Shown here in pieces: positions 3,465 to 20,577 of a DNA stretch of 27,145 bases. Made by a program: the position numbers and the translations under genes. The number at the start of each line of letters is the position of its first letter. The first letter of the stretch is position 1. This DNA is from a virus. Location: IMG/VR virus record IMGVR_UViG_3300035670_001068, positions 1 to 27,145 of that record, one strand, 5' to 3'. Under the pieces are notes generated by a model. That model had not been told where the DNA came from. It saw only the letters and a list, made by a program, of their open reading frames with translations, and ran no database searches.

Positions 3465-5386
3465 AAGAGTGGGAGCCGCCGAAACCAGCAGAAGTCATCG
3501 AACTATGGAACAAGGCTGACACCTACCTTCTCAAGGAACGACGCGACTACTGGATGAACGCCAGCTACTACGCTGGCCTCCAATGGATTTGGTGGGATCA
3601 CACCCGCAACATCGTGCAGGAACTTGACTACGCCAACGACGCAGAAAAGTTCACGCGCATCACCGTCGACAAGTTCGGCCCCCGAGTCACCAACCTCGTC
3701 GCCCGCCTCACCCGCTCGCCACTCGTCTGGGAAGTCGAGCCGACCGGCATCGATGACTCCAACCTTCGCCGCCAGCGTTTGCAGGAACAGTTGCTGCTGT
3801 CCGAAGCGCATGAACAGTCGTGGGACGAGATTCGCGAGGAAGCCCTACTCCAAACCCTGTTCGGTGGCGTGAGCGCCATCAGCGTCGACTGGGACCCCGA
3901 CATGGGCGAAATCGTCGCCGTCGACCCCGTCACCGCCGTGCCGATCCCGGCCGGTGGCGTGCGCCTGACACCGCTGTCCGTTTCCGAGTTCACCCTTGAA
4001 CCAGGCTCAGCCGACGAGAACGCCGCACGGTACTGGATCAGGTGCATCGCCCTACCGCCGGAGCAGGTCAAGGAACGCTACAAACTGGACTGGATGCCGA
4101 ACCCCGACGCCGAGGCCGCCCTCTCGTCGCGCCACCGCACCCTCCTGTCGCGTCGCCCACAAGGCCAGCCACCGCGATTGACGCTGGTCTACTGCTACTA
4201 CGAGCGCCCCACCGACACCACCCCTGGCTGTGTCGTACATGTCGTCAACGGCAAGCAGGTGTACGCCTACGGTGACGGCCGAGGCTGGCCGTTCCCATTC
4301 CCGCATCTGAACATCGTGCTCCCGCGCCAGCGTCGCATCCCGCGCACCTGGGTCGGACACACCTTGCTGTCGCCCGCTCGAGACATCCAGTACGCCTACA
4401 ACCGGGCGCGTTCCACCATCCTTGAGCACATGCGGAAGGCGGCCAACGCACGCCTGATGGTGCCGGTCGGGTCGATCGAAGACTCCGACACAGTCACCAC
4501 CGACCCGGCCGACATCCTCGAGTATAACTCCGAGATTGGCGAGCCTCATTGGCAGACCGCGCCGGACGTGCCGCGTTGGATCAGCAACGAAGCCGCCCAG
4601 CTCGAGATGGAGATGGACGACATCTTCTTCACCCACGCCGTCTCCCGCGGCCAGGCTCCCGGCGACCGAAACTCTGGTTTGGCCCTGTCGGTTCTCGCCG
4701 AGAAGGACGACACGCCGCTCGGCCCGATGGCCCGCAACCAGTCGCAGGTCTGGGCCAAGGTCGGCAAGATGACGTTGCAGTTGTACCGCGCCTACGCCCA
4801 GCAGTCCGGCATGGTTCGCACCCAAACCCTCACCACCCCGCAGGGATCGACGGTGCAGTTCTCCTGGTCCGGCGACGACATCGACGAGTTTCCCGTCGTC
4901 AAAGTGCCGTTGGACGCCACCGCGCCCCGATCCAAGATCGCCACCCAGTCGGTCCTCACCAGCCTGGCCGACCGTTTCCCGCAGGCGTTCGCCAACCTGG
5001 ACCCCATCGCCATCGCCCGCATGTTGGATCTGCCAGACCCGAAGGGCTACCTGGCAACCACCGATCCCGACATCGCCAAGGCCGAATGGGAGAACGGGCT
5101 GCTCATGCAGGCTGTCGCCGTCATGCCCGCCATGTTCGACGACCACGCCAAGCACATCGCCCAGCACAACAAGGAGCGCAAGTCGCCCGCCTACGAACTC
5201 GCATCCGACGACATTCGTCAGGCCATCGACGTTCACATCCAGGCGCACGAAACCCTGGCAATGGAAGAAGCGCAGAAGCAGCTCGCAGCCATGCAACAGA
5301 TGCCGGGAGCGCAAGCCCTCCCGCAAGCCAACGAGCCTCCCGGTTCGATGGTTCCCCAACCCCAGGCCGGAGCGCCTGTCCAATAA
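3461..5386 (+). CDS. Portal protein (P22-like)
   Basis: 641 residues, the length expected of large P22-type portals. It forms the dodecameric ring at one capsid vertex through which DNA is packaged and ejected. Family-like features: an N-terminal helical start (ELWNKADTYLLKERRDYWMNASYYAGLQW), TRSPLVWEVEPTG near residue 85, the FGGVSAISVDWDP wing element near 137, the long helix LLSPARDIQYAYNRARSTILEH near 305, and SGLALSVLAEKDD near 405 in the helical region facing the channel. The C-terminal 100 residues are Gln/Pro/Ala-rich, like a portal barrel or disordered tail. It starts at a GTG overlapping the previous stop with AGTAGGA upstream, and the scaffold gene follows 9 bases after its stop. 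Confidence 0.92.
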   Translation: MKEWEPPKPAEVIELWNKADTYLLKERRDYWMNASYYAGLQWIWWDHTRNIVQELDYANDAEKFTRITVDKFGPRVTNLVARLTRSPLVWEVEPTGIDDSNLRRQRLQEQLLLSEAHEQSWDEIREEALLQTLFGGVSAISVDWDPDMGEIVAVDPVTAVPIPAGGVRLTPLSVSEFTLEPGSADENAARYWIRCIALPPEQVKERYKLDWMPNPDAEAALSSRHRTLLSRRPQGQPPRLTLVYCYYERPTDTTPGCVVHVVNGKQVYAYGDGRGWPFPFPHLNIVLPRQRRIPRTWVGHTLLSPARDIQYAYNRARSTILEHMRKAANARLMVPVGSIEDSDTVTTDPADILEYNSEIGEPHWQTAPDVPRWISNEAAQLEMEMDDIFFTHAVSRGQAPGDRNSGLALSVLAEKDDTPLGPMARNQSQVWAKVGKMTLQLYRAYAQQSGMVRTQTLTTPQGSTVQFSWSGDDIDEFPVVKVPLDATAPRSKIATQSVLTSLADRFPQAFANLDPIAIARMLDLPDPKGYLATTDPDIAKAEWENGLLMQAVAVMPAMFDDHAKHIAQHNKERKSPAYELASDDIRQAIDVHIQAHETLAMEEAQKQLAAMQQMPGAQALPQANEPPGSMVPQPQAGAPVQ

Positions 5387-18073: not shown

Positions 18074-19139
18074 AGACGACATCCGGTCGGCCAACGAAAC
18101 GGACGACACCGACAAGCTCCGGGCCATGCTGATTCAGGCCCGACGCCAACGGAACCAGGCCGACCAGGTCAACGCCCAGCTCCTGGCCCGTATGCAGGAG
18201 TTCGAGAAGGCGCTCGAGATTGTCGACGCCGCCGACTCGGCCCAGATCGCCCCACCGAAATGGATGGTCGCCCCACCGTCCGGGCGCAAGAAGCACGCCA
18301 CCCTGGTGCTCCTGCTGTCCGACACCCACTTCGACGAGGTCGTGGACCCGGTCGAGGTTGGCGGCCTGAATGCCTACAGCCGGACCATCGCCGAACAGCG
18401 CCTGCGCCTCTGTGTCGACAACGCCGTCAAGATGGCCCGCCACTACCTGGCCGGAGTCACCTTCGACGGGGTCGTCGTCATGCTCGGCGGTGACATCTTC
18501 TCCGGTGACATCCACGAGGAACTAAAAGACACCAACGAGGCCGTCATCTTGGACAGCCTGCTCCATTGGTCCGAACAGGTGGCCGCTGCCCTCGGATGCT
18601 TCGCCGACGAGTTCGGCAAGGTTCACGTCCCGGTGGTCGTCGGGAACCACGGCCGTCAGTCCCGCAAGCCCCGGATGAAACAGCGCGCCAAAACGAACTA
18701 CGACTGGCTCCTGGGCAAAATGGTGGAGCGCCACTACCAGGGCGACAAACGGTTTACGTTCCAGGTGTCCGAGAACGCCGACACCCTCGTCCAGATCTAC
18801 GGCCACGGGCATCTCCTGACCCACGGCGACCAGGTGTCCGGCGGTGGTGGGATTGGCGGTATCTGGCCCCCGATCATGCGGATGCGGGCCAGGAAAGCCC
18901 AGCGTGCGATGGAAGTCGGCCAGCCGTTCGAGACGCTCTGGATGGGGCATTGGCACCAATACATCTCCACCCCCTACCTGGTCATCAACGGCTCCACCAA
19001 GGGGCTGGACGAGTACGCCTGGCTGAACAACTTCGGTTACGAGGTGCCACAACAGGCTCTCGCTATTGTGACCCCTGAGCACAACATCACGGTCCAAGCC
19101 CCGGTGTTCTGCCAGGACCGCAAGAAGGAGAAATGGTGA
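18063..19139 (+). CDS. Metallophosphoesterase (calcineurin-like)
   Basis: 358 residues from GTG 18063, chosen because AAGGAG lies 7 bases upstream; the frame runs back to 17955 inside the HTH gene without support. N-terminal coiled coil (about 14-58), then the metal site: LLLSDTHF (Asp87, His89), LGGDIFSGD (Asp144), VVVGNHG (Asn195, His196), IYGHGHLL (about 247-250) and MGHWHQY (296-298). The order DxH, GDxx, GNH, GH(x)H defines a two-metal phosphoesterase. The substrate is unknown; these occur in many phages and may act on nucleotides, DNA or RNA ends. Position in the late module just before lysis is unusual. Confidence 0.92.
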   Translation: MSLEDDIRSANETDDTDKLRAMLIQARRQRNQADQVNAQLLARMQEFEKALEIVDAADSAQIAPPKWMVAPPSGRKKHATLVLLLSDTHFDEVVDPVEVGGLNAYSRTIAEQRLRLCVDNAVKMARHYLAGVTFDGVVVMLGGDIFSGDIHEELKDTNEAVILDSLLHWSEQVAAALGCFADEFGKVHVPVVVGNHGRQSRKPRMKQRAKTNYDWLLGKMVERHYQGDKRFTFQVSENADTLVQIYGHGHLLTHGDQVSGGGGIGGIWPPIMRMRARKAQRAMEVGQPFETLWMGHWHQYISTPYLVINGSTKGLDEYAWLNNFGYEVPQQALAIVTPEHNITVQAPVFCQDRKKEKW

Positions 19140-19453
19140 ATGTTGACCGGCACGCCGTAGAAGCCCAAGAACTGGTGCCGGACATCGTCTCGAGAAACTG
19201 GCCCGAGATCGTCCCGATGCACACGCTTGTCATCATCGACGCCATCAACGCCGACGGCAGAAGGGAACTACTCGTCATGTGCGACTCCGAACAACCACCC
19301 TGGGTGACCAGCGGCGTACTGACCTTGGTCAAAGCCGACGTGGAAACCGAATGGGCGCACCACTACCCGTTCATTGACGAAGACGAAGAAACCGACGAAG
19401 ACGAAGACGAGGACGAAGAAGATGACGACGACGAGGACGACGACGATGACTGA
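19136..19453 (+). CDS. Small protein with polyacidic tail
   Basis: 105 residues from GTG 19136 (106 if ATG 19133 is used). GTG was chosen because AAGGAG is 5 bases away rather than 2 and gives the GTGA overlap typical here. A compact 75-residue domain precedes a run of about 28 residues that are almost all Asp and Glu (positions about 77-105). Such tails can mimic DNA or neutralise basic partners, which is inference. The tail is encoded by repeats of GAC/GAA/GAG, so replication slippage could vary its length. Confidence 0.72.
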   Translation: MNVDRHAVEAQELVPDIVSRNWPEIVPMHTLVIIDAINADGRRELLVMCDSEQPPWVTSGVLTLVKADVETEWAHHYPFIDEDEETDEDEDEDEEDDDDEDDDDD

Positions 19454-19580
19454 AGTCAGCGCAGCCACCATCCGGTCGGCCCTCAAGTTCCTGTACCGAT
19501 CCACGCCGGTCGGAGCCGACGAGCAGGACGAGCTGTTCCGGCTCATCAAACGGCTCGAGGCTGCCCTGCACAAGAAATGA
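19446..19580 (+). CDS. Very small protein of unknown function
   Basis: 44 residues starting at ATG 19446 within the end of the acidic gene (8-base overlap). MTEVSAATIRSALKFLYRST and DEQDELFRLIKRLEAALHKK suggest a helical hairpin. The longer frame from 19374 is a Thr/Lys shadow of the acidic codons and is rejected. No family recognised. Confidence 0.6.
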   Translation: MTEVSAATIRSALKFLYRSTPVGADEQDELFRLIKRLEAALHKK

Positions 19581-19603
19581 CTGGTCACCGAACTTCCGGT
19601 TGG

Positions 19604-19615
19604 TATAGTGGAGTC
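19604..19615 (+). promoter_or_regulatory. Extended -10 promoter at the holin start
   Basis: TGG-TATAGT (19601-19609) is an extended -10 element followed by 6 bases and GTG 19616, so a leaderless holin transcript is expected. No -35 is clear. A 7-bp inverted repeat TGGTCAC (19582-19588) and GTGACCA (19616-19622) flanks the promoter and contains the start codon. Confidence 0.6.
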
Positions 19616-19825
19616 GTGACCAAGAAACTTGCCCTCCGAACCCTCGCCGTGTTCGTCGTCGCCACGACCTCCAACATCGGTGTCGGAGCCTTGGTCGACG
19701 TCGAAGTCTGGAAGTCAGCCGTCATGGCCGGAGTCTGGGCCGTCCTGACCGTCGCCCAGCGCCTCGCAATGGCCTACCGGGACGGCATCCTGACCGACAA
19801 GGAACTGAAAGAGATATTCGAGTAA
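19616..19825 (+). CDS. Two-helix holin
   Basis: 69 residues. GTG 19616 was chosen over an upstream GTG-like frame (to 19577) because of the promoter and because the shorter form starts at the first membrane helix. Helix 1 about 6-28 (LALRTLAVFVVATTSNIGVGALV), helix 2 about 33-53 (WKSAVMAGVWAVLTVAQRLAM), then a cytoplasmic tail with YRDGILTDKELKEIF. The DGxLTxxEL tail is typical of holins in actinobacterial phages. It would permeabilise the membrane at a set time and let the downstream lysin out. It begins the lysis cassette. Confidence 0.85.
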   Translation: MTKKLALRTLAVFVVATTSNIGVGALVDVEVWKSAVMAGVWAVLTVAQRLAMAYRDGILTDKELKEIFE

Positions 19826-20075: not shown

Positions 20076-20088
20076 TAGCGTGTCACTC
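20076..20088 (+). promoter_or_regulatory. Possible leaderless -10 box before the lysin
   Basis: TAGCGT (20076-20081) is followed by 7 bases and ATG 20089. No Shine-Dalgarno sequence is present. The box matches only the TANNNT pattern, so this is weaker than the others; it lies in a 17-base gap. GCGTG/CACGC pairing could put the ATG in a small loop. Confidence 0.35.
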
Positions 20089-20577
20089 ATGGCACGCCCA
20101 TACACAGGAACCAAAGACGCGCCCCACCCGAAAGCCCGGCAGGGAACTATTGCCGTGTACGACTGGCTGCGCTTCCTGTTCGGCCTGAAAGGACTGGGCG
20201 TCTACGCCAACCGCAACGTGCGCGGTGTCGACAAGGCACAGTTGTCCGTCCACGCCACCTTCCGGGCGATGGACTTGGGTGGCACACCCGAACAGCTCCA
20301 CAAGGTGATTTCATTTGTCTACCAGAACCGGCAGGTTTTAGGTATCGAAGAAATCCACGACTACGCCGGGAACTACATCCCGAACCCTAAGGGCTGGGGC
20401 GCCGGATACCGCTGTTCTCGAGACTGGGGCCGACTCATGGACGGCTGGAAGGTCTACTCCAAGAACACCATCGGCTCCCGAGGTGCAGCCTGGACACACG
20501 TCGAAGTGTCGCCTGCGATAGCCGACTCCACCCGTCAACAGATCGACGCGATCTTCACCAAGTTGCTGGAGGCATGA
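20089..20577 (+). CDS. Endolysin, M15-like zinc peptidase
   Basis: 162 residues from ATG 20089; a GTG 9 bases earlier (20080) is possible but overlaps the -10-like box. SVHATFRAMDLGG (53-65) matches the SxHxxxxAxD metal motif of peptidoglycan carboxypeptidases (His55, Asp62). WTHVEVSP (136-143) supplies the last metal His137 and Glu139. The family cuts peptide cross-links in the cell wall. Between them IEEIHDYAGNYI and GAGYRCSRDWG match small lysins of actinobacterial phages. There is no extra wall-binding domain. Directly follows the holin region, so it is the likely lysin. Confidence 0.82.
   Translation: MARPYTGTKDAPHPKARQGTIAVYDWLRFLFGLKGLGVYANRNVRGVDKAQLSVHATFRAMDLGGTPEQLHKVISFVYQNRQVLGIEEIHDYAGNYIPNPKGWGAGYRCSRDWGRLMDGWKVYSKNTIGSRGAAWTHVEVSPAIADSTRQQIDAIFTKLLEA

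Follow-up and report, generated by a model that had tools for sequence, protein, structure and literature searches.

Does the inverted repeat that surrounds the promoter of a putative holin gene hide the gene's start codon in RNA arriving from upstream, as proposed in the initial annotation of this 27,145-nt stretch of viral DNA (the window), and does it thereby act as a timing device for lysis? The arms TGGTCAC (19582-19588) and GTGACCA are exact reverse complements and form a perfect 7-bp match with a 27-nt spacer around TATAGT, just as that annotation had it. This pair is the sole such match in the window, where 0.01 would be expected for the exact sequence. We suggest, with a probability of about 0.68, that the complementarity is a by-product at a conserved leaderless promoter (Table 1).

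Table 1. Coordinates of the features at the putative holin locus, in window positions
Feature	Position	Strand	Details
Small upstream gene, 44 aa	19446..19580	+	ATG 19446; stop TGA 19578-19580, 1 nt before the left arm
Conserved promoter-upstream block, CTGGTCACCG	19581..19590	+	includes the left arm TGGTCAC; block present as CTGGTNACCG in L002, L203, L207 and L208
Inner hairpin part (predicted fold)	19590..19615	+	19590-19591 with 19614-19615; 19594-19598 with 19609-19613
Extended -10, TGG-TATAGT	19601..19609	+	6 nt before GTG; TATAGT at 19604-19609; TGGTATGGT in L207/L208, TGGTACGCT in L203
Right arm GTGACCA	19616..19622	+	spans the GTG start, the Thr codon and the first Lys base
69-aa membrane protein, putative holin	19616..19825	+	two hydrophobic stretches; PHROG 26427, E 6.7e-17
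Putative M15-like peptidase gene	20076..20577	+	ATG 20089; leaderless-type -10 TAGCGT at 20076-20081

The 69-aa protein is encoded one gene before a protein assigned to M15 by the motif HATFRAMD...WTHVEVS only, with no family above cut-off. All seven homologues scanned match PHROG 26427 as well, a family labelled nuclease, and this label finds no support in such short hydrophobic proteins. Its size, its pair of hydrophobic stretches and its position favor the earlier label of holin, but neither a curated holin family nor any Pfam family matched the protein, and the PHROG 443 holin match reached only E 0.37. We therefore keep the label as a plausible guess from position and shape. Phage records gave no DNA or protein match, and no relative was found in bacterial and archaeal genomes. 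Among the loci compared (numbered with an L), L001 is identical to the window, while the nearest relative, L002, encodes a 90% identical protein on a contig that is also present as L005, L084, L113, L204 and L315. Proteins of L207 and L208 are 62-64% identical, and these loci are syntenic and have the same upstream gene, a homologue of which occupies the same place in L203 and L206-L209. The window also encodes a 106-aa protein (19133-19453) with a long Asp/Glu-rich tail built from GAC/GAA/GAG-type repeats, and the length of this tail varies between relatives.

An in-frame ATG at 19577, overlapping the stop of the upstream gene, would open a possible 82-aa frame in place of the 69-aa frame that GTG 19616 opens. 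Both the family alignment and the conserved protein N-terminus begin at the GTG, the PHROG 26427 match begins at profile position 7 (residue 18 of the long form), and the ATG equivalent to 19577 is out of frame and meets a stop in L207 and L208 and ends after 11 codons in L203, which together make GTG 19616 the likely true start. An N-terminally extended protein was rejected on the grounds that its frame is not kept in these three relatives. The gene could also have a dual start, with read-through RNA read from ATG 19577 by coupling to the upstream stop to give an 82-aa form besides the 69-aa form. The overlap of the ATG with that stop and the 13 in-frame codons that link it to the GTG in both the window and L002 are in its favor; however, two of the three L002 changes alter the additional residues, family homology begins at the GTG, and the same ATG leads to a stop or another frame in the three relatives, so that we consider this reading most improbable.

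Leaderless genes of M. tuberculosis typically have TANNNT shortly before a start codon at which transcription also begins (PMC3898074). Taking TANNNT placed 6-7 nt before the start as the leaderless pattern, we find it here as TATAGT, 6 nt and GTG. L207 and L208 have TGGTATGGT (TATGGT), 7 nt and ATG, so that promoter and start position are kept despite a different start sequence; in L203, where the putative holin gene is lost, TGGTACGCT is followed by 6 nt and ATG. A loose -35-like TGGTCA lies inside the upstream block, 16 nt before the -10. The putative peptidase gene follows the same pattern (TAGCGT, 7 nt, ATG 20089), and L002 keeps the hexamer. The spacing, the conservation in L207 and L208 and the alignment of the N-terminus at the GTG thus uphold the initial proposal that the gene has its own promoter and a leaderless start, and we regard the site as well supported by sequence as the gene's own leaderless promoter. 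The sequence comparison shows the layout of the site, the conservation of promoter and start and the loss of pairing in relatives; promoter activity, the transcription start, leaderless translation and holin function are inferred.

RNA reading through from upstream is predicted to fold into a hairpin of -14.9 kcal/mol for 41 nt, whose stem comprises 14 bp, beyond the 7 bp first noted (the 7 bp of the arms, GA/TC and UUCCG/UGGAG). In this predicted RNA the pairing probability of the GTG is ~1 when 100 or 160 nt of context are folded and ~0.9 with 250 nt. RNA begun at 19616 lacks the left arm. The notion of a GTG buried in read-through RNA and free in promoter-derived RNA is thus borne out by folding in silico, with a stem of 14 bp and not 7. 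When the left arm was altered in silico, pairing of the GTG was reduced but not lost, with other partners substituting.

Comparison of relatives was carried out directly on the arms in register, as the MAFFT alignment has gaps throughout the inner stem and its pair columns were left unused. L002 differs from the window at three positions within the hairpin (19595, 19612 and 19613) and retains pairing at all of them: T to C at 19595 is matched by A to G at 19612 (U-A to C-G), and G to A at 19613 turns U-G into U-A. When three substitutions were placed at random, 4% of trials put all of them in stems and left every pair intact, and 1.8% included a two-sided change as well. These changes are the best evidence for the hairpin, but they come from a single post hoc comparison in which two of the three substitutions fall side by side. 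In L207 and L208 the gene, the promoter and TGGTNACCG are retained (CTGGTAACCG, with the left arm mostly preserved as TGGTAAC), but their start, ATGACAG, breaks three of the seven arm pairs; the ATG is predicted to be mostly open in L207 and paired with other bases in L208. The compensatory changes to be looked for in relatives amount to one pair change in L002, against absent pairing in L207 and L208. Pairing over the putative holin start is confined to the window lineage (L001 and L002). Distant homologues (about 40-57% identical) mostly use Shine-Dalgarno sequences or coupling to the upstream stop (ATGA) and lack the repeat. L158 and L165 have TACAAT just before the ATG and a start with no covering arm, while the homologues L118 and L132 start with ATGACCA and have no left arm, so coding sequence is a ready explanation for the right arm. 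In L203, TGGTCA and TGACCA are both still present, the second copy before its ATG, although the gene has gone.

The surroundings of the promoter vary further among these phages. L203 is a close relative with a 95% identical exonuclease, and around its positions 4620-4700 the putative holin gene is lost while the promoter and TGGTCACCG are kept; downstream of the promoter come a 12-codon frame and then the 76-aa gene that in the window follows the putative holin gene. At the corresponding position after the small gene, L206, L007, L008 and L009 have a leaderless-type TAGACT, 7 nt and ATG, then a short lipoprotein-like frame and an overlapping membrane-protein gene, which may be an exchanged lysis cassette with a similar promoter ahead of it. 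In L205 and L220 an extra gene between the exonuclease and the next gene carries HNH-like motifs recognized by eye (LEHR...VHHINGIRDDNRxENLELW) and looks like a homing endonuclease. The gene after the small gene in L226 and L230 (also L219, L221 and L237) has TAATCT or TAGAGT, 6 nt and GTG, again of leaderless type; in L226 and L230 a CACCGCA/TGCGGTG stem extends to the start codon, and L219 lacks that left arm.

How often such stems arise by chance was estimated in several ways. Across the loci compared, perfect stems of at least 7 bp contain the start codon at 9 of 692 gene starts (1.3%), and one of these comes from a locus fetched via a similar DNA pattern. Shuffling only the 50 nt upstream of the putative holin gene gave stems of at least 7 bp in 0.8% of cases, and the flanking-stem geometry gave 1.25%. 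The chance expectation is ~0.3-0.5 such stems per window with some tens of genes, and with ~1.3% of starts bearing an equally long stem, a single case per window is nothing unusual. Relative to dinucleotide shuffles, the z of the fold is -1.9 in the window and -2.4 in L113 (the L002 contig). Pairing at 28 leaderless-type starts exceeds that at Shine-Dalgarno starts (P 0.017) but does not exceed that at the remaining starts (P 0.62); a general excess of structure at leaderless starts is thus not demonstrated, and no long stem was found at the window's other leaderless-type starts (14812, 17807 and 20089). A search of viral contigs for both arms plus a TATA box returned 21 stretches; L084 and L099 are the putative holin gene by contig name, and L197 is also among the background stems of the 692-start survey. 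A search for TATART-N6-GTGACCAA returned 28 stretches, in which other genes with a promoter and start match at most 4-5 of the 7 left-arm bases; promoter and start thus do not bring the arm along.

Repeats of a similar kind occur at the leaderless-by-sequence start of a YqaJ-domain recombinase gene (PF09588) in related phages, flanking the -10 from about -30 to +6 of the start (L282, L284-L286, L289-L292, L294, L296, L300, L302, L305, L308 and L310). The arms differ yet pair: TGCTGT/ACAGCA, CATGCTG/CAGCATG, CTGTG/CACAG, TTCATGTA/TACATGAA, ATCCATGT/ACATGGAT and GCTGGT/ACCAGC. A perfect stem of at least 5 bp is present in 16 of 22 distinct YqaJ sequences, compared to 20% of 173 Shine-Dalgarno starts, and the summed stem length of 115 (83.5, sd 4.4, in shuffles) was reached by 0 of 500 shuffles, a figure that gives no strict probability as the sequences are related. 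A subgroup (L293, L295, L297 and L301) lacks the repeat. As a possible start-hiding or operator element, this YqaJ repeat appears more promising than the one in the window.

Returning to the window, the repeat could still act in its own small lineage (the window and L002) as a lock, in which read-through RNA would fold over the GTG and only RNA from the local promoter would be translated. The stable fold over the GTG, slightly more stable than in shuffles, the L002 differences that all keep pairing (one of them two-sided) and the covarying arms at leaderless YqaJ starts would agree with this, but the pairing is lost in L207 and L208 despite conservation of gene, promoter and left block and is absent from the other homologues, stems of this length have a base rate of 1.3% per start, and a ribosome terminating at 19578-19580 would probably cover the left arm. 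With relatives that have the gene and promoter but not the pairing, the very outcome that the initial annotation named as refuting its idea, and distant homologues mostly without the repeat, the hairpin is unlikely to be the timing device for lysis that it was first taken for, and a lock restricted to this lineage is unlikely too. We are similarly doubtful about a broader version, a leaderless lock resembling that of T4 gene e, with the promoter in the hairpin loop, that would arise lineage by lineage, at the putative holin here and at YqaJ elsewhere.

Alternatively, the repeat could serve as the DNA target of a regulator that contacts both arms around the promoter and thereby represses it. 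Two-fold symmetry around the promoter would suit such an operator, as would the persistence of both half sites in L203 after loss of the gene. However, the window contains a single full TGGTCAC and no second such site, the spacing of half sites is unequal between the window (27 nt) and L203, L207 and L208 lack the right half, and the two-sided change in the inner stem is more in keeping with RNA than with a protein-binding site; we therefore regard an operator as quite improbable.

We favor the by-product reading. The promoter would lie in the narrow gap that separates the small upstream gene from the GTG at which a small membrane protein begins, close to a putative peptidase. RNA polymerase would recognize the extended -10 TGGTATAGT, aided by the upstream block, transcription would begin at or beside the G of the GTG, and ribosomes would initiate at the 5' end of the resulting leaderless mRNA. 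On this view the left arm forms part of the upstream promoter block, the right arm encodes fMet-Thr-Lys, and the two became complementary in one small lineage, probably as a by-product. A hairpin is not required for translation to depend on the promoter, because read-through RNA lacks a well-spaced Shine-Dalgarno sequence (GGAG is only 2 nt from the GTG), and the GTG in such RNA should be a weak start whether or not the hairpin forms. In agreement with this reading, L203, L207 and L208 keep CTGGTNACCG but not its pairing partner. Counted against it are the pair-keeping changes in L002 (2-4% of random trials), TGGTCA...TGACCA in L203 and the covarying repeats at unrelated leaderless YqaJ starts in related phages.

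In phage T4, long early RNAs of genes e, soc, 49 and I-TevI hide the start, and for gene e and I-TevI, late promoters within that structure give rise to RNAs devoid of the 5' arm; the effect on gene e is 100-fold, and there too the structure is absent in some relatives (PMC3014915). Similarly, the window promoter is placed such that its RNA lacks the 5' arm, and in the read-through RNA the start of a putative lysis gene is predicted to be concealed, a likeness that holds in silico only. However, the T4 gene e structure hides a Shine-Dalgarno/AUG and was experimentally tested, whereas the window start, read from sequence alone, would be leaderless; unlike in a lock of the gene e type, pairing is not kept in L207 and L208, where gene and promoter are, and is kept only in L002. 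On present evidence the window resembles T4 gene e in anatomy only. If the hairpin did work, it would extend T4-style silencing of early lysis mRNA to leaderless translation, and the covarying repeats at YqaJ starts make the wider idea of leaderless locks testable. Similarity is also seen to the leaderless actinobacterial promoters of M. tuberculosis (PMC3898074), with TANNNT 6-7 nt before ATG or GTG, an extended -10 TGN, a purine start and no clear -35. The differences are that the window comes from a phage genome, that its transcription start is predicted and that a conserved block lies ~17 nt upstream of the -10. A conserved leaderless promoter of this kind fixes the true start of the putative lysis gene and suggests how these uncultivated phages may begin its expression.
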